From assembly GCA_020161435.1 (NCBI GenBank), contig JAIUNV010000001.1:62001-126000 (forward strand): DNA of 64,000 nucleotides. The letters run 5' to 3'. The position numbers and the translations under genes were made by a program. This document shows, piece by piece, positions 12,755 to 40,070 of the stretch. Each line of letters starts with the position of its first letter. Position 1 is the stretch's first letter. Origin of the DNA: Bacteroidota bacterium. Lineage in GTDB: Bacteria > Bacteroidota > Bacteroidia > Chitinophagales > Chitinophagaceae. The notes under the pieces were generated by a model. It was not told the DNA's origin. It saw nothing but the letters and a program-made list of their open reading frames with translations, and ran no database searches.

Positions 12755-12790
12755 AAAAACGGTCGCTCATGTAGAGCGACCGTTTTTTTT
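12755..12790. terminator. Bidirectional hairpin terminator between convergent genes
   Basis: CGGTCGCTC (12760-12768) pairs perfectly with GAGCGACCG (12774-12782) around a 5-base loop, with five or more A before and eight T after. It serves both the GLPGLI gene (plus) and the BI-1 family gene (minus). Confidence 0.9.
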
Positions 12791-25573: not shown

Positions 25574-25603
25574 AAAAAGCCACGCTGCAAGGGGTGGCTT
25601 TTT
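25574..25603 (+). terminator. Terminator of the M28 peptidase gene
   Basis: AAAAAGCCAC (25574-25583) pairs with GTGGCTTTTT (25594-25603) around a 10-base loop, 22 bp after the stop codon. Confidence 0.85.
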
Positions 25604-25763
25604 GCTTGTATTGCCTGCACATATTTTATACATTTTGGCACTATTGATACGTGGTTGGTCACGGTTTATGAAAAGATGCCGCACAGGGTTTGTTTATTCG
25701 GGTACTTTGAAGGGATAACAGCTACTTTAGCAAGACCATTTACGTACCCGTTATAGTCAAACT

Positions 25764-28700
25764 ATGCATATAATTTCCTGCGCATGGCGGTCGCTGTGCT
25801 TTCTCGTGTTCAGTTGCTTCTTCATTCCCTTTTTTGCCATTGCACAACAAGCGCCCGGCCCCGTTGCACTCTTCAACAGCGGTGATATTATGCAAGATGC
25901 CAGCAAGCAGTTTGAAGAAAAAAACTACAAAGGCGCCATTGGCCTGTATAATAGCATTCCTAAAAGCGATACCAATTACAACAACGCATTGTATGAGTTG
26001 AGCTACGCTTACTATGCCGATAGCCAGTACGATAAATCGTTGCAAACTGCAGCAGAAGGCATCCGGCTTTTTCCTGAAATGAAGGGCAGGTTTATGTTGC
26101 TGCAAGCCAGTGTGCTCGATGATATGGATAAGAAAACTGAAGCCATTCAAATGTATACACAATGTATTCAGCTCAATGTGTTTGACTACACCGCCTATTA
26201 CAACCGTGCTGTTACTTACAATCAAACGAAGCAATACGACAGTGCATTTGCCGATTTAAAAAAGTGCCTGCTCATCAATCCGTTTTATGCATCGGGCCAC
26301 TACCTCATGGCCATGCACTACCTGCGCAATGGCAATGTTGTAGCCAGTGTACTGGCCCTGCAATCCTACCTCATCATTGCCCCCGAAGGCCGCTACCTCA
26401 ACAGCAGCATACAATGGCTGAGTAAAATAGCCAAGGCATCAGACGATGTAATGGAATATGCTGCTAAAGCCGACGATAGCCAGCTGGGTAGTTTTGCCCC
26501 TATACAAGCGGTGCTACTCTCGAAAGCCGCACTGGACAAGAGTTATAAGCTCAAAACAAGTTTAGAAGACAACATAGTGCGGCAGGTGCAGGTGGTAAAT
26601 GAACAGCTGCAATACGATGCCGGCAACGATGATTTTGCGCAGCAGGTATACGTCCCTTTTTTGAAGCAGTTGATGGAAAAAAACTTCTTTGAACCACATG
26701 TGTACACCATGTTTGGCGGGCTCGATATTGCCGACATTCAAAACTGGAACAAACGCAACAAAAAAGTAACGGAACCCTATTTTGCTTTTGCCAACGATTA
26801 CCTACGCCTCATTCGCACCACACAAGAAATGATGTACAGCAAGCGGGCACAATGCACCCAATGCTACTTGTATGAAGATGGCTACATAAATGGAAAAGGC
26901 CCATGCAATAACCAAGATTTGAGCCAGTACCATGGCAGCTGGCAGTTGTATTATGAAAACGGACAACTGAAAGAGAAAGGCCAGTTTGATGAACAACAAA
27001 ACCGCCAAGGCGAGTGGGTAACCTATCACGAAAATGGACAGCTCAAAGAAGTATCGCAATACAAAGACAACTTACTGAATGGCCTTTCTAAAGGATGGCA
27101 CGAAAACGGCAACCCATGGTTTGAATACACACTGCATATGGGCAAAACCGAAGGCAAAGCCATTACCTATTTTTACAACGGCCTTACACGCAGTGAGCAG
27201 CAATACAAGAACGATGTAAAAGACGGTGAAGAAATTGAATACACCTATCAGGGCATTCTTTTTGCCAAGGCCAATTACAAAGAAGGCAAAAAGCAGGGCC
27301 TAACCACCTTGTATCATCCGGGTGGAAAAGTGCGGGAACATCTGAGCTATACCGATGGTGTAGAAGATGGCAAATACCAGTCTTTTTACTTAGACGGACA
27401 ACCATTTGAAACCGGCACTTATGTAGCCGGAAAACGGACAGGGCTCTGGACTTCGCTACACGAAAACGGTAAGCCCAAAGACAGCACCACTTACAGCGAT
27501 AATGAAGTAACAGGGCCTTTCAGCGAATACTTCGACAACGGCAACATAAGCCGCAAAGGCAATTACAGTAAGAAAAAACTAGACGGACTACTCTACGATT
27601 ATGCCAGCGACGGCAAGCTGTACAGCATGAGCTTGTTTGACAACGGCAGGCTTCGTGAAATAACTTACTATAACAAAGCCGGAGCTGTGATCAGCAGCAC
27701 CAATACAAAGGGCGATAAAAACCTGATTGTATCTTATTCGGCCAAAGGCTACAAATACGCAGAAGGGTATTATAACAAAGAAGGCTATCGCAATGGTAGT
27801 TACACTACTTTTTTTCCCAACGGAAAAGTGCGGGAGCAATCCACCTACAGCGAAGGCGAACTCGACGGGCTGAGTACAGAACGCTTGTTTACCGGCCAGC
27901 CCTGGAAGGAACTTACATACAAAAAAGGCAAACAGGATGGCTATTACAAAAGCTATTTCACCAGCGGCAAACTGTCTTCCGAAGGCTGGATGGTGGCCGA
28001 TGAAAAACAACAATTGTTTCGCTTTTACAACATCAACGGCAGCTACGATGTAGACGAGTATTATTTAGACAATGATCTGAATGGTTTCAGCACTTCGTAT
28101 TACCCAAACAATAAGCCTTCGTTTGTGTATCGCTACGACCACAGCTGGCTGATGGGCTGGGAGCAATACGATAGCAGCGGCAAGCTGTTGAGCACCGCCA
28201 ATTTTCCGGCTGGTAAAGGCGCTTACGAAACCAGGCACTTCAATGGCAGTGTAATGGTTCGTGCTGCCTACGAAGCGTATCAATTGCACGGCAAATACGA
28301 ATCATTTTACTACAATGGCAAGCCCCGGCTTAGCATGCAGTACCGCTATGGCAAATCATACGACTCGGCCATTACCCGGTATTTCAATGGAAAAATTGAA
28401 AGCCGCGGACTGATGGTAAACAACGAAAAACACGGCAAGTGGCAGTACTATTTTGAAGATGGCAAGCTAAGAGAAACCGAGCTCAACAAACATGGCGAAC
28501 TGCATGGCGAAAATATTTTTTACCACCCCGATGGCAGCATCGATAAATCATCGGTATACAAAGAAGGTGCCCTGCACGGCAACACCAACCTGTACAATGC
28601 AGCCGGCGAACTGATGATACAAATTCACTACGAAAATGGCTATGTAGTAAGCTATAGCTACACCGGTAAAGATGGCAAACTGGTACCCGCTATCAACATC

Positions 28701-29084
28701 AATCCTGAAAAAGATTCAGCCATTGGCTACTACAAAAACGGCGTAAAAAGTGCGGTGCTGCATTTTGAAAATGAAGACGAGCATGGCGAAAGAACGCTGT
28801 ACCACAATACAGGTGCCGTATATTCCGTTGAACAGCGACACATTGGTTATGTACATGGTGTAAGAAAAACCTACTTCGCCAATGGAAAACTGCAGAAAGA
28901 AGAATCTTTTTACCATGGCCGGAATGAAGGTCCGCTCAAAGAGTACTTTCCATCAGGCAAGTTGAAATCAGAAAAAACATTTGTAAACGATGACCCCCAC
29001 GGCACCTGGAAATATTACTCGGAAGCAGGTTTAGTAACCGAAACACGGGTGTATTTTCATGGCCTGCTTTTATCAGTACAATAA
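25764..29084 (+). CDS. Giant TPR plus MORN/YwqK-repeat exported protein
   Basis: A 1106-residue protein with a signal peptide ending FFAIAQ. Residues about 40-235 form tetratricopeptide repeats (KQFEEKNYKGAIGLYNSIPK, LQTAAEGIRLFPE, YNRAVTYNQTKQYDSAFADL). A cysteine cluster, CTQCYLYEDGYINGKGPC, lies near residue 372. From about residue 390 to the end there are roughly 28 units of about 24 residues of the MORN_2/YwqK type, for example GSWQLYYENGQLKEKGQF, GKWQYYFEDGKLRETELN and GPLKEYFPSGKLKSEKTF; a few units are degenerate. The automatic label for such repeats, toxin-antitoxin YwqK antitoxin, is not supported by any toxin gene nearby. The next gene starts 4 bp after the stop. A structural or binding role at the cell surface or in the periplasm is inferred. 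Confidence 0.88.
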   Translation: MHIISCAWRSLCFLVFSCFFIPFFAIAQQAPGPVALFNSGDIMQDASKQFEEKNYKGAIGLYNSIPKSDTNYNNALYELSYAYYADSQYDKSLQTAAEGIRLFPEMKGRFMLLQASVLDDMDKKTEAIQMYTQCIQLNVFDYTAYYNRAVTYNQTKQYDSAFADLKKCLLINPFYASGHYLMAMHYLRNGNVVASVLALQSYLIIAPEGRYLNSSIQWLSKIAKASDDVMEYAAKADDSQLGSFAPIQAVLLSKAALDKSYKLKTSLEDNIVRQVQVVNEQLQYDAGNDDFAQQVYVPFLKQLMEKNFFEPHVYTMFGGLDIADIQNWNKRNKKVTEPYFAFANDYLRLIRTTQEMMYSKRAQCTQCYLYEDGYINGKGPCNNQDLSQYHGSWQLYYENGQLKEKGQFDEQQNRQGEWVTYHENGQLKEVSQYKDNLLNGLSKGWHENGNPWFEYTLHMGKTEGKAITYFYNGLTRSEQQYKNDVKDGEEIEYTYQGILFAKANYKEGKKQGLTTLYHPGGKVREHLSYTDGVEDGKYQSFYLDGQPFETGTYVAGKRTGLWTSLHENGKPKDSTTYSDNEVTGPFSEYFDNGNISRKGNYSKKKLDGLLYDYASDGKLYSMSLFDNGRLREITYYNKAGAVISSTNTKGDKNLIVSYSAKGYKYAEGYYNKEGYRNGSYTTFFPNGKVREQSTYSEGELDGLSTERLFTGQPWKELTYKKGKQDGYYKSYFTSGKLSSEGWMVADEKQQLFRFYNINGSYDVDEYYLDNDLNGFSTSYYPNNKPSFVYRYDHSWLMGWEQYDSSGKLLSTANFPAGKGAYETRHFNGSVMVRAAYEAYQLHGKYESFYYNGKPRLSMQYRYGKSYDSAITRYFNGKIESRGLMVNNEKHGKWQYYFEDGKLRETELNKHGELHGENIFYHPDGSIDKSSVYKEGALHGNTNLYNAAGELMIQIHYENGYVVSYSYTGKDGKLVPAININPEKDSAIGYYKNGVKSAVLHFENEDEHGERTLYHNTGAVYSVEQRHIGYVHGVRKTYFANGKLQKEESFYHGRNEGPLKEYFPSGKLKSEKTFVNDDPHGTWKYYSEAGLVTETRVYFHGLLLSVQ

Positions 29085-29088
29085 ACGT

Positions 29089-31008
29089 ATGATGCAATTG
29101 AAACAATGGATACTGGCCACAGCGCTGTGCAGCATGGCCGGTGTGAGCCAGGCGCAATCCCTGCAAGAGGTGCAGGCCCGTTATCCCAACGAAGCCGCTG
29201 TATTTCTTAATTACAAAACCGAGCTACGGCTGTTTTTGCAAAACGACACCCCCGCTGCCGAACGCAAGCAGGTAAACGACCTGATGATTCTGAGCGAAAA
29301 AAATGCCGGTCTGTTTGCACGAAGCGCAGTGTACCACAGTGGCTTTAATGAGCTCACCGGTATGGAGGCGTACACCTTGCTGCCGGGATCGAAAAAGAGA
29401 ATACCCATTGGGCAAACGAAAACACAAAGCAGCACCAGCCGTTCCGTTTTTTATGATGATGTAAAAGAAACCAGCTTCGATTATCCGGCACTTACACAAG
29501 GAGCCATTGCACATATCGAATACACACAGCTGTTAAAAGAAGCGCATCTCATTACGCCTTTTAGTTATGGTGCCGGCATTCCTGGCTGGAACGTAACGTT
29601 TACTGCCATTGTGCCGGAAAACATCGAGATAAAATACATCGTAAAAAATGACCCCAAAGGCCTGCTGAAATTAAGCACGGAAAAAAAGCGGGGCACTACT
29701 TACTATACATGGAGTATGCAGCATGTAAAAAACGAAGACAGTTATGGCGATGCTCCTGACGACCGCTATTACGAACCGCATGTAATTGTTTACATCAGCA
29801 AATACAACAACAGCGCCGGCCAGCAAACCTTTGTACAATCGGTTGATGATTTATACCGCTGGAATGCATCGTTTACCAAAACCCTCAACCAAACAGAAGA
29901 CCCTGCACTCAAAGCCATTACCGATTCGCTGGTAAAACCATTGAGCTCTTCTCTGCAAAAAGCAGAAGCCATTTATAAGTGGGTTCAAAACCACATTCGG
30001 TATGTAGCTTTTGAAAACGGGCTTGAAGGCTTTCGGCCACGGCAGGCTGCTGAAGTATGCAGCAAACGCTATGGCGATTGTAAAGACATGAGCAGCATTA
30101 TTACGCAAATGCTGCGTATGGCGGGTATAGAAGCTTATTACACATGGATAGGCACCAGAGATATTCCTTACACCTATCATGATGTGCCGCTACCCATTGT
30201 AGATAACCACATGATTTCAGTTGCCCGTATAGATGGTCGTTGGTATTTTATTGATGGCACATCGCCCAGCAGCACCATTTACCTGCCACCCAGTTCTATA
30301 CAAAACAAACAGGCGCTGGTGGGCATCAGCGATACTAAATATGAAATATTAACAGTGCCCGTAGCAGAGCCCGTTGTATCTATGGTAGAAGACAGCACGT
30401 TTTTTCATTTTACACCCGATGGTATTGCCGGTAAAGAAAAAGTATTGTACAAAGGCTACTATGCCGAAGACGTACACAACGCCCTGCTATACCGCGATGA
30501 AAAACGCCTGAAGGAGTATGTAAAAACCCGCATGGGCAAAGCCAGCAATAAGTTTATGCTGGGCGAATACAAGGTAAGCAAGCAAGATGCACCTACACTT
30601 GAAGCCAGTATTGTGGCCGATTTTGAAGTGCCGGGCTATGGTAAAAAAGTAGGCAATGAGTATTACATTAACCTCCATTTGGAAAAGCTTTTTGAAAACC
30701 AACTGATTGATACTGCCAAGCGTAAAGTGCCCAAGCAGTTTGAATATCAGGGCCATGTTATTTCGCACCACATACTTAGCATTCCGGAGGGGTATAAGGT
30801 AAGTTATCATCCTGAAAACTTTGAAGCGGAAACGAAATTCTACAAACTGAAAGTGCGGTATACCAAACAGCAAAACAGCATTATTGCCACACAAGAACTT
30901 ACCACAAAAGTGCTGCTGCTGGAACCAGCACAGTTTGCCGAGTGGAATACCCAAATGCCCCGCATACAAGCACATTACAAAGAACAAATTGTTCTCGAAA
31001 AAAATTAA
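29089..31008 (+). CDS. DUF3857 and transglutaminase-domain protein (intact triad)
   Basis: A 639-residue exported protein. The start at 29089 gives a signal peptide (MMQLKQWILATALCSMAGVS). Residues about 35-230 match DUF3857. A transglutaminase-like domain follows with the full papain-type triad: Cys in RYGDCKDMSSIITQMLRMAG, His in VDNHMISVARI and Asp in YFIDGTSPSS. The segment AEAIYKWVQNHIRYVAFEN before it is typical. The remaining C-terminal region is strand-rich. It is the middle gene of a three-gene operon, 4 bp after the MORN-repeat gene and 11 bp before a degenerate relative. A cysteine-protease or crosslinking role in the periplasm is inferred; the substrate is unknown. Confidence 0.92.
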   Translation: MMQLKQWILATALCSMAGVSQAQSLQEVQARYPNEAAVFLNYKTELRLFLQNDTPAAERKQVNDLMILSEKNAGLFARSAVYHSGFNELTGMEAYTLLPGSKKRIPIGQTKTQSSTSRSVFYDDVKETSFDYPALTQGAIAHIEYTQLLKEAHLITPFSYGAGIPGWNVTFTAIVPENIEIKYIVKNDPKGLLKLSTEKKRGTTYYTWSMQHVKNEDSYGDAPDDRYYEPHVIVYISKYNNSAGQQTFVQSVDDLYRWNASFTKTLNQTEDPALKAITDSLVKPLSSSLQKAEAIYKWVQNHIRYVAFENGLEGFRPRQAAEVCSKRYGDCKDMSSIITQMLRMAGIEAYYTWIGTRDIPYTYHDVPLPIVDNHMISVARIDGRWYFIDGTSPSSTIYLPPSSIQNKQALVGISDTKYEILTVPVAEPVVSMVEDSTFFHFTPDGIAGKEKVLYKGYYAEDVHNALLYRDEKRLKEYVKTRMGKASNKFMLGEYKVSKQDAPTLEASIVADFEVPGYGKKVGNEYYINLHLEKLFENQLIDTAKRKVPKQFEYQGHVISHHILSIPEGYKVSYHPENFEAETKFYKLKVRYTKQQNSIIATQELTTKVLLLEPAQFAEWNTQMPRIQAHYKEQIVLEKN

Positions 31009-31019
31009 ACACGTTCATC

Positions 31020-32987
31020 ATGATACGATCTGCAATCCTTGCATTATTTACTTGTACTGTTTTACTATTCGCCACTCAGCAGGCAGTGGCACAAAGCCAA
31101 CCCTACCAATGGAAAGCCACTCCAGCACTGCATGAGCTACCCGCACAGTATGCCAACGAAAATGCTGTGATCATTATGGATCAGCGGCTACACACATTTT
31201 TATCCGACGAAAAAGAAGGCTTGCTGTTGTATACCACGCTGCATAAAATCATCAGGGTAAACAAGGAGCAGGGTGTAGAAATGTTCAACAAAGTGTATGT
31301 GCCGGTGGCTTACGATGCCGAAGTACAAGAAATACAAGCCCGTGTAATTACGCCTGCTGGCAAAGTCATCAACCTGCCTGCCGATAAAGTATTAGACGAA
31401 GAAGAAGATGGCAGGCTCTACAAAAAGTTTGCACTGGAAGGCGTAGAGAAAGGCAGCGAGGTGGAATACATTGCCCGCATCAAACGCAATGCTTCATTTT
31501 TCGGACTGGAAGTATTTCAATCGCCGGTACCCTGTGCAGAAGCCCGTTTTACACTTACTATTCCGGCTTATCTCGTTTTTACCTGCAAAGGGTACAATGG
31601 TTTTGAAATGGCCGCCGATACAGTAATTGGTGAGCAGCGCATTAGCTATGGCAGTTGCAGCAACATAGCAGTAGTAGAAAATGAAAAGTATGCGCAAACA
31701 GCACAACACTTAAAAAATGTGCAGTACAAACTGTCGTACAATCTGAGCAAAGACAAAGACGTTCGTTTGTTTACCTGGAATCAGTTGGCAAAAAACATTT
31801 TCGACCGCTACAGTAAGCCCGAAGAAAAAGAAGTGAAGGCCATTGCTGCTTTTCTCAAATCGAGTAAGATAAATGGCGAAACAGAAGAAGCAAAAATCAT
31901 TGCCCTCGAAGATTATCTGAAAAACAACATCAGCATCAACGAACAAGGTATTGGTGATGATGCTGAGCTGATAGAAAAAATAGTAAAAACCAAAGTAGCC
32001 AGCAACGAAGGCTTTACCAAACTGTTTGCCCTGTGCTTGCAGCAAATGGATATCAAGTATCAAATTGTTTTTCCCAGCAAAAGAGATGACATACCGCTGG
32101 ATGAAAAACTGGAAAACTACCGGTTGATTGAAGACCCGGTGTTTTATTTTCCTGGCACGGGCAAGTATCTGGAGCCAACAAATATTTCGTTTCGCTACCC
32201 TTACATACAGCCCAACTGGGCTGCCACCAAAGGATTGTTTTTGCAAAATACCAGCATTGGCAATTTCAATACAGCATATGCATCTTTTAAAAACATTGCT
32301 ATTCTTCCGTACGAGCAAAGCAGCCACAACATGGAGGTTAAACTACGCTTTAACAGCAACCTCGATTCGGTACTGATGCATAGCAAACAAATTTTTACAG
32401 GCTATGGTGCCAGCATGTATCGGCCTGCTTTTCATTTTTTGCCAAAAGATAAAATTCAAGACTTCACTCAAGAGCTGATGCAGAGTGTGTCGAACAGCAA
32501 AAACATCCGTAATATTAAAGTAGCCAACGACGCATTTGCCGATGGATACAGCAATAAGCCACTTACTATTGAAGGCGATATCAGTAGTGCAGAACTGTTT
32601 GAAATAGCCGGTAATAAATTGCTACTGAAAATAGGTGATGTGATAGGGCCACAAGTGCAGATGTATCAGGAAAAGCCACGCCAGTTGCCGGTTTCAGTAG
32701 AGTACCCTCATGCCCTAGACCGCAAAATTGAACTCACCATACCAGATGGCTACAGCATCAAAAATCCGGATGACCTGAAATTTTTCATTACTGAAAAAGC
32801 AAATGAAGAAGGTACCATGGGTTTCATTTCTACCTACAAAATAGAAGGACAAAAACTGCTGATAGACATACATGAATATTACAAAGAAACAGCGTACAGC
32901 ATGGAGCAGTTTGATGCATTTCAGAAAGTGATAAATGCCGCTGCAGACTTTAATAAAGTGGTGCTGGTGCTGGAAAAAAAGAAGTAA
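31020..32987 (+). CDS. DUF3857 protein with degenerate transglutaminase domain
   Basis: A 655-residue exported protein related to its upstream neighbour. The start at 31020 gives a signal peptide (MIRSAILALFTCTVLLFATQ). The N-terminal DUF3857 domain is clear (LLLYTTLHKIIRVNKEQGVE, VITPAGKVINLPADKV). In the transglutaminase-like part the catalytic cysteine region is replaced by KTKVASNEGFTKLFALCLQQ, and the His and Asp of the triad are also not found in place (the matching segment ends FYFPGTGKYLEPTN), so it is probably inactive. Pairing with an active paralogue 11 bp upstream suggests that the two act together. The operon ends in a perfect 18-bp terminator. Confidence 0.9.
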   Translation: MIRSAILALFTCTVLLFATQQAVAQSQPYQWKATPALHELPAQYANENAVIIMDQRLHTFLSDEKEGLLLYTTLHKIIRVNKEQGVEMFNKVYVPVAYDAEVQEIQARVITPAGKVINLPADKVLDEEEDGRLYKKFALEGVEKGSEVEYIARIKRNASFFGLEVFQSPVPCAEARFTLTIPAYLVFTCKGYNGFEMAADTVIGEQRISYGSCSNIAVVENEKYAQTAQHLKNVQYKLSYNLSKDKDVRLFTWNQLAKNIFDRYSKPEEKEVKAIAAFLKSSKINGETEEAKIIALEDYLKNNISINEQGIGDDAELIEKIVKTKVASNEGFTKLFALCLQQMDIKYQIVFPSKRDDIPLDEKLENYRLIEDPVFYFPGTGKYLEPTNISFRYPYIQPNWAATKGLFLQNTSIGNFNTAYASFKNIAILPYEQSSHNMEVKLRFNSNLDSVLMHSKQIFTGYGASMYRPAFHFLPKDKIQDFTQELMQSVSNSKNIRNIKVANDAFADGYSNKPLTIEGDISSAELFEIAGNKLLLKIGDVIGPQVQMYQEKPRQLPVSVEYPHALDRKIELTIPDGYSIKNPDDLKFFITEKANEEGTMGFISTYKIEGQKLLIDIHEYYKETAYSMEQFDAFQKVINAAADFNKVVLVLEKKK

Positions 32988-33008
32988 TCCACACTTCATT
33001 ATTTACAT

Positions 33009-33048
33009 AAAAAGAGGCTTTGCAATAACGATTGCAAAGCCTCTTTTT
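33009..33048 (+). terminator. Terminator of the MORN/DUF3857 operon
   Basis: Eighteen bases starting AAAAAGAGGCTTTGC (33009-33026) pair perfectly with 33031-33048 around the 4-base loop AACG, ending in five T. It is the longest perfect hairpin in the window. Confidence 0.93.
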
Positions 33049-33069
33049 ACAGAAGTAGGGGCATAAAAA

Positions 33070-39948: not shown

Positions 39949-39961
39949 AGGGCTACTGAAT

Positions 39962-39998
39962 AAAAAATGCCGGACAACAGAATTGTCCGGCATTTTTT
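39962..39998 (+). terminator. Terminator after the Spy-like gene
   Basis: Sixteen bases at 39962-39977 (AAAAAATGCCGGACAA) pair perfectly with 39983-39998 around the loop CAGAA, ending in six T. Confidence 0.93.
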
Positions 39999-40070
39999 AT
40001 GTAAGCGGTTACCGCTCTTGCTTATTAGGTTATATCTTCTACATTCCATTTTACTTAAATCTGCCACCAC

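Follow-up and report, generated by a model that had tools for sequence, protein, structure and literature searches.

A conserved operon of Bacteroidota joins a TPR/MORN-ribbon protein to a triad-bearing and a triad-less protein of the DUF3857-transglutaminase type

What holds together three adjacent genes, one for a long repeat protein and two for related proteins of a transglutaminase-like fold, of which one carries a catalytic triad and the other does not? This question is raised by a locus in a Chitinophagaceae genome, located in a 64,000-nucleotide stretch of contig JAIUNV010000001.1 that was analyzed as a whole and is called the window here. A preliminary description of this DNA had interpreted the three genes as a dedicated system. 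All three reading frames were recovered at the positions it gave, with intergenic gaps of 4 bp between genes 1 and 2 and 11 bp between genes 2 and 3. The genes and the parts of their products that matter for the argument are as follows.

25764..29084, plus strand: gene 1, exported TPR and MORN ribbon protein of 1106 amino acids (open reading frame, Pfam, AlphaFold, homologs)
25878..26846, plus strand: helical TPR-like domain of gene 1, residues 39-361 (helices in the AlphaFold model; MamA match)
26859..29078, plus strand: MORN ribbon of gene 1, residues 366-1105, 62 predicted strands (DSSP on the model)
29089..31008, plus strand: gene 2, DUF3857-transglutaminase-like protein of 639 amino acids with an intact Cys-His-Asp triad (Pfam; triad in 36/36 sequences)
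30079..30081, plus strand: gene 2 codon for the predicted catalytic Cys331 in the motif YGDCKD (invariant in 36 aligned sequences)
30208..30210, plus strand: gene 2 codon for the predicted catalytic His374 (invariant in 36 aligned sequences)
30253..30255, plus strand: gene 2 codon for the predicted catalytic Asp389 (invariant in 36 aligned sequences)
31020..32987, plus strand: gene 3, predicted DUF3857-transglutaminase-fold pseudoenzyme of 655 amino acids without the triad (Pfam, alignment, AlphaFold)

The three genes almost certainly constitute one functional unit, as the recurrence of their order supports. Seven of ten genomes of the same genus carry genes 1 and 3 with a full-length gene 1, and gene 2 lies between them or at a contig end. 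Exceptions to a plain 1-2-3 reading within the genus are contig breaks in one genome (G003) and frame breaks in another (G001). In the latter, a single-contig genome, genes 1 and 2 are split into separate frames (G001:C1:4235821-4241058), perhaps by sequencing errors. A survey of 246 Chitinophagaceae genomes recovered gene 1 in 39 and gene 3 in 56, and gene 3 is present in every one of the 39 that have gene 1 (hypergeometric probability 3e-32, not corrected for shared ancestry). Two of these 39 are without a listed gene 2 match: G033 has gene 1 and gene 3 at the ends of contigs, and the matches in G187 are fragments. In G168 gene 1 is found on another contig than the gene 2-gene 3 pair, and in G197 gene 2 lies apart from genes 1 and 3. 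These two arrangements argue that the set is kept even when it is unlinked.

The adjacency is not confined to this strain; such a confinement, which the preliminary description would have counted against a functional unit, did not occur. At 40 fetched loci the genes mostly follow each other in the order 1-2-3 with short gaps, often of -4 to +25 bp, while the flanking genes vary. By a scan of named genomes and a phylum sample the operon was also found in Ferruginibacter, Segetibacter, Niastella, Parafilimonas, Lacibacter, Puia, Flavihumibacter, Taibaiella and Edaphocola, and outside the family in Sporocytophaga and in other genomes titled Cytophagales and Flavobacteriales. It recurs down to about 27% identity; a near-identical locus (L122) comes from a record titled Chitinophagaceae bacterium SJ477. 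After removal of duplicates, 111 distinct gene-3 loci were available. Thirteen of them end at a contig edge, leaving 98 informative loci, of which 65 read 1-2-3, two read 1-2(split)-3 and one reads 1-3. The gene 2-gene 3 pair stands without an adjacent gene 1 in 22 distinct loci, and gene 3 has neither neighbor in eight. The genome samples are uneven, many loci come from metagenome assemblies, and gene 2 in L073 and L078 was taken from search matches instead of greedy open reading frame calls. A strain-specific accident of gene order was rejected, since the order is shared by many genera of the Chitinophagaceae and by further Bacteroidota. A conserved fourth gene was not found at the collected loci.

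Several loci showed features of their own. In a single subclade (L076, L143, L146, L147, L155 and L159) a homologous SDR-like gene of about 202-228 amino acids follows gene 3 at a distance of -1 to 15 bp. One genome (G124) has an extra, diverged copy of gene 3 directly before gene 1 (L072 4677-6662). The Runella loci L192, L195, L196 and L201 hold gene 3 homologs without adjacent gene 1 or 2, hence a lone pseudoenzyme. Finally, a contig titled as a metagenome-assembled genome of Bifidobacterium breve (L187) carries a Bacteroidota-type gene 2-gene 3 pair and is probably mis-binned.

What could such a unit do? Gene 2 offers the clearest clue. Its product exceeds the curated Pfam cut-offs for DUF3857 (PF12969; E-value 3e-9, 37.5 bits against 24.6) and for Transglut_core (PF01841; E-value 3e-11, 43.8 bits against 23), and it also matches DUF3858 weakly. 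The residues Gly-Asp-Cys331-Lys-Asp, His374 and Asp389 are kept in 36 of 36 aligned gene 2 sequences, in agreement with the earlier claim that one of the DUF3857 proteins keeps a Cys-His-Asp triad. The best reading of these sequences is therefore a thiol enzyme of the transglutaminase/papain fold with predicted activity. Since neither triad nor fold distinguishes a transglutaminase from a protease or from an enzyme with another acyl-transfer chemistry, the reaction is left undecided between proteolysis and acyl transfer.

One explanation takes the proteolytic option further: gene 2 would act in the periplasm as a protease that, by a LapG-like logic, trims a surface protein or sets it free, with gene 3 as its regulator and gene 1 presenting the client. 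Transglutaminase-like cysteine proteases including LapG belong to the same fold superfamily (PMC4866520), and the sole solved relative, 3KD4, was deposited as a putative protease. When the gene 2 profile was compared with the PDB, this protein (BDI_1141 of Parabacteroides distasonis, with the DUF3857-transglutaminase fold) was its only sequence match (E-value 5e-9). However, the profile alignment places GTP opposite the GDC of gene 2, so 3KD4 apparently lacks the catalytic Cys and its label proves nothing; moreover, none of the operon's neighbors was recognised as a LapA-like client. We regard the protease explanation as fairly unlikely.

The product of gene 3 matches DUF3857 even more strongly than that of gene 2 (E-value 3e-14, 54 bits, cut-off 24.6). 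Its Transglut_core match stays below the cut-off (20.5 bits against 23), but the fold is still kept in the AlphaFold model, which has a predicted local distance difference test score (pLDDT) of 90.6. The best solved match of this model along the whole chain is again 3KD4 (Z-score 20.6 over 472 residues), at about 11% sequence identity, and residues 250-426 match the transglutaminase fold of XPC (Z-score 10.6). The triad is absent in 39 of 39 aligned gene 3 sequences, as had been claimed for the second DUF3857 protein, while F377, R392 and P394 are invariant or nearly so among them. A decaying gene was considered and rejected, because the homologs are full length and have invariant residues of their own. 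We conclude from alignment and model that gene 3 encodes a predicted stable pseudoenzyme, which retains the transglutaminase fold and has lost the triad. A similar state is known from Rad4/XPC, which shares the fold without catalysis; this is, however, a eukaryotic DNA-damage protein, and its catalytic loss presumably occurred independently. In a search for a genomic partner of 3KD4, a 275-residue fragment gave no match in 247 sampled genomes at an E-value of 1e-20. The N-terminal beta domain of DUF3857 (residues 44-250 of the gene 3 model) resembles the N-terminal domain of M1 aminopeptidases and ribophorin I/OST1, with Z-scores of 10-12.

Gene 1 differs from both. It matches MORN_2 (PF07661) with an E-value of 4.7e-52 and 168.2 bits over the whole protein, above the cut-off of 29.6 bits, and in addition TPR models. 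In its AlphaFold model (mean pLDDT 90.8, predicted template modelling score 0.75) helices reach up to residue 361 and are followed by 62 strands up to residue 1105, which form one continuous ribbon. The 1106-residue TPR/MORN protein described at the outset therefore stands, although its estimate of about 28 MORN units has to be raised to about 30-31 two-strand units. The TPR part has its best solved match in the TPR protein MamA (Z-score 17.3, root-mean-square deviation 2.4 over 172 residues). The ribbon shares the MORN beta-hairpin fold with eukaryotic MORN1 (6T69, 6T4R and others; template modelling score (TM-score) on the target about 0.5-0.6 in a local match over about 200 residues), but MORN1 is intracellular and has 15 repeats, whereas gene 1 encodes an exported bacterial protein with about 30 repeats and a TPR domain. 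Solved MORN repeats serve as modules for protein-protein interaction and build extended assemblies (PMC7725318). The top Foldseek E-values for gene 1 went to Rhs/YD-repeat shell proteins, but with TM-scores of about 0.1 and deviations of about 30 A, and no RHS family was among the Pfam matches. A cluster of Cys residues had also been pointed out. It is present in the window protein but not conserved (C364 in 1 of 30 and C367 in 3 of 30 aligned sequences); as a conserved feature it was rejected and carries no weight.

The most striking property of the ribbon is its constant length. In 60 distinct complete operons with widely diverged sequences it measures 742.4 +/- 2.6 residues, with a range of 736-750; the length filter applied to gene 1 (1000-1200 amino acids) would have let through gains or losses of as many as about four units. 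One unit comprises about 24 residues, and thus the observed spread means that no repeat unit was gained or lost. No tandem DNA repeats were found in gene 1, which indicates that the repeats are old at the DNA level. For a tandem-repeat protein it is unusual that orthologs diverge so strongly and yet all have the same number of repeats, which suggests a function that depends on length.

This constancy also bears on the possibility that gene 1 is a MORN_2-type surface adhesin similar to LIC20035 and that genes 2 and 3 are merely co-operonic. Gene 1 shares MORN_2 repeats with LIC20035-family adhesins and with YwqK-family antitoxins, and it partially matches the LIC20035 adhesin model (NF033566). 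This match reaches 91.8 bits against an equivalog cut-off of 250, for which the MORN repeats alone account, and membership in this family was rejected. Likewise, plasmid-borne YwqK-type matches cover only part of the ribbon, and no linkage of YwqK-type antitoxins or LIC20035 adhesins to DUF3857 pairs was seen. The constant repeat number found here is unlike the variable repeat arrays of adhesins, and the conservation of the operon together with the 39/39 co-occurrence speaks against bystanders. The adhesin explanation is very improbable.

Is the pairing of a triad-bearing and a triad-less DUF3857 protein specific to this operon? The pairing was borne out, but it is not unique to the ribbon operon. 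On another contig the window's own genome carries a second adjacent pair (L214 9057-13018, about G000:C4:395056-399017), in which a dead gene of 680 amino acids is followed after 17 bp by a triad-bearing gene of 633 amino acids, and further pairs or triples occur in relatives and in distant Bacteroidota. One locus (L217 13885-19892) has three consecutive DUF3857 genes, of which the first two are dead and the last is triad-bearing. Like genes 2 and 3, the paralogous pairs of L214-L219 combine adjacent triad-bearing and triad-less proteins of about 630-680 amino acids with common ancestry; they differ in that the dead gene often comes first and that no ribbon gene lies alongside. The triad-bearing member of L214 has Glu at the position of the triad Asp, as have most triad-bearing members of lineage B in the tree described next.

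A tree of 88 sequences resolved three lineages, A (the window operon), B and C, whose active and dead members each form one clade in a mirrored arrangement. The tree has support values of the Shimodaira-Hasegawa-like approximate likelihood ratio test (SH-aLRT) only, a midpoint root and three plus three sequences for lineage C. Dead C is sister to dead A and active C is sister to active A, both with a support of 100. Active B falls outside active A and C, and the whole active side has a support of 81. The simplest reading of this tree is one ancient active/dead split, followed by duplication of the pair as a pair. To judge from these sequences, active/dead pairing is an older and general Bacteroidota theme, and only lineage A of the three carries the ribbon gene.

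These lineages bear on two further explanations. First, gene 2 could crosslink the ribbon, to itself or to the envelope, via glutamine-lysine bonds, while gene 3 would be the subunit that binds the substrate; the product would be a covalent surface or periplasmic lattice. Crosslinking of the repeat protein was an example given in the preliminary description. The intact triad of gene 2 and its conserved linkage to the repeat protein fit such a role, but triad and fold are also those of proteases and amidases, and the same kind of active/dead pair occurs without a ribbon gene. We consider crosslinking distinctly unlikely. Second, the pair could be a heterodimer with a general housekeeping role in the envelope, to which gene 1 would be a lineage-specific and largely separate accessory that was lost several times. 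The mirrored trees of three pair lineages are consistent with this, and so is the gene 3 tree, on which the pair-only label must have changed nine times or more. However, a gene 1 of the same architecture and length lies beside the pair in distant loci titled Cytophagales and Flavobacteriales (L168, L172, L182, L185, L198 and L203-L205), which argues that gene 1 is an old and stable part of lineage A. A housekeeping pair with gene 1 as an accessory is improbable as well.

All three proteins have a signal-peptide-like N-terminus, read from the sequence. An obvious lipobox was seen in none of the three, and no NCBIfam model of a type IX secretion C-terminal sorting domain matched them up to an E-value of 0.1. 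Periplasmic residence is thus the simplest inference, and the three proteins are probably periplasmic.

Our preferred explanation is a mechanism in which a periplasmic scaffold of fixed length works with an enzyme-pseudoenzyme pair, a proposal that we hold to be as likely right as wrong. Gene 1 would be the rigid scaffold, with a TPR docking domain and, after it, one MORN beta-ribbon that comprises about 62 strands. Gene 3, which would derive from the same ancestor as gene 2, may pair with gene 2 as a heterodimer and position, activate or restrict it. In a physical complex, the TPR domain and the ribbon would keep the enzyme pair, a client envelope protein or both at a fixed spacing, and gene 2 would cleave the client or transfer an acyl group to or from it. 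Several observations weigh against this proposal. The 22 loci with the pair only, and genomes with the pair only such as G079 and G203 (at the E-value threshold used), indicate that the pair does not need gene 1. Lineages B and C have no ribbon gene alongside, and with at least two other pair lineages lacking a ribbon protein, the ribbon alone cannot explain the pairing. The correlation of 0.89 between the three genes' distance matrices speaks for the proposal but may reflect species history alone.

A bolder version of the scaffold mechanism is tentative and rather doubtful. Here the MORN ribbon would act as a ruler spanning the periplasm, its TPR end would bear the enzyme held by an obligate pseudoenzyme, and one envelope reaction would take place at a set position; the pair itself would be an ancient Bacteroidota module, put to use again and again. 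The idea of a ruler derives solely from the fixed ribbon length. By our estimate the ribbon would span about 30 nm if it were flat-stacked at roughly 4.8 A per strand.

The operon is bordered by two inverted repeats, neither with an assigned strand.

33008..33049: terminator, perfect 19-bp inverted repeat with the 4-nt loop AACG and A/T-rich ends (computed)
25575..25603: terminator-like inverted repeat AAAAAGCCAC...GTGGCTTTTT 5' of gene 1 (read by eye)

The downstream hairpin sits between gene 3 and a convergent gene and is the longest perfect hairpin with a loop of 3-8 nucleotides in the window. A perfect terminator hairpin had been noted before and was found again, but its stem measures 19 bp and not 18 bp. 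The upstream repeat parts gene 1 from a peptidase-like gene, and shorter overlapping forms of it appear in the computed list (25584-25598 and 25587-25605). Other long perfect terminator-like hairpins in the window lie at 39960-40000 (18 bp) and 12755-12787 (14 bp).

DUF3857 is a named domain of unknown function that occurs in many Bacteroidota genomes. In the searchable literature, from which most subscription journals were excluded, we found no paper on the function of 3KD4 and none that links DUF3857 to transglutaminase or MORN repeats to a bacterial transglutaminase-like partner; nor was an earlier description of such a system, a substrate or a localization experiment found there, and the preliminary description had likewise known of no such description. 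There is strong evidence that the conserved trio represents an undescribed cell-envelope system, carried by many soil and water Bacteroidota. Our data join three uncharacterised families into one testable system and indicate that DUF3857 proteins have long been paired as active and dead copies that are inherited together. They also correct an assumption about 3KD4, the one solved DUF3857-transglutaminase structure: labelled a putative protease, it apparently has no catalytic Cys and could itself be the dead half of such a pair. If the ruler reading were true, the operon would encode a new kind of bacterial envelope machine.

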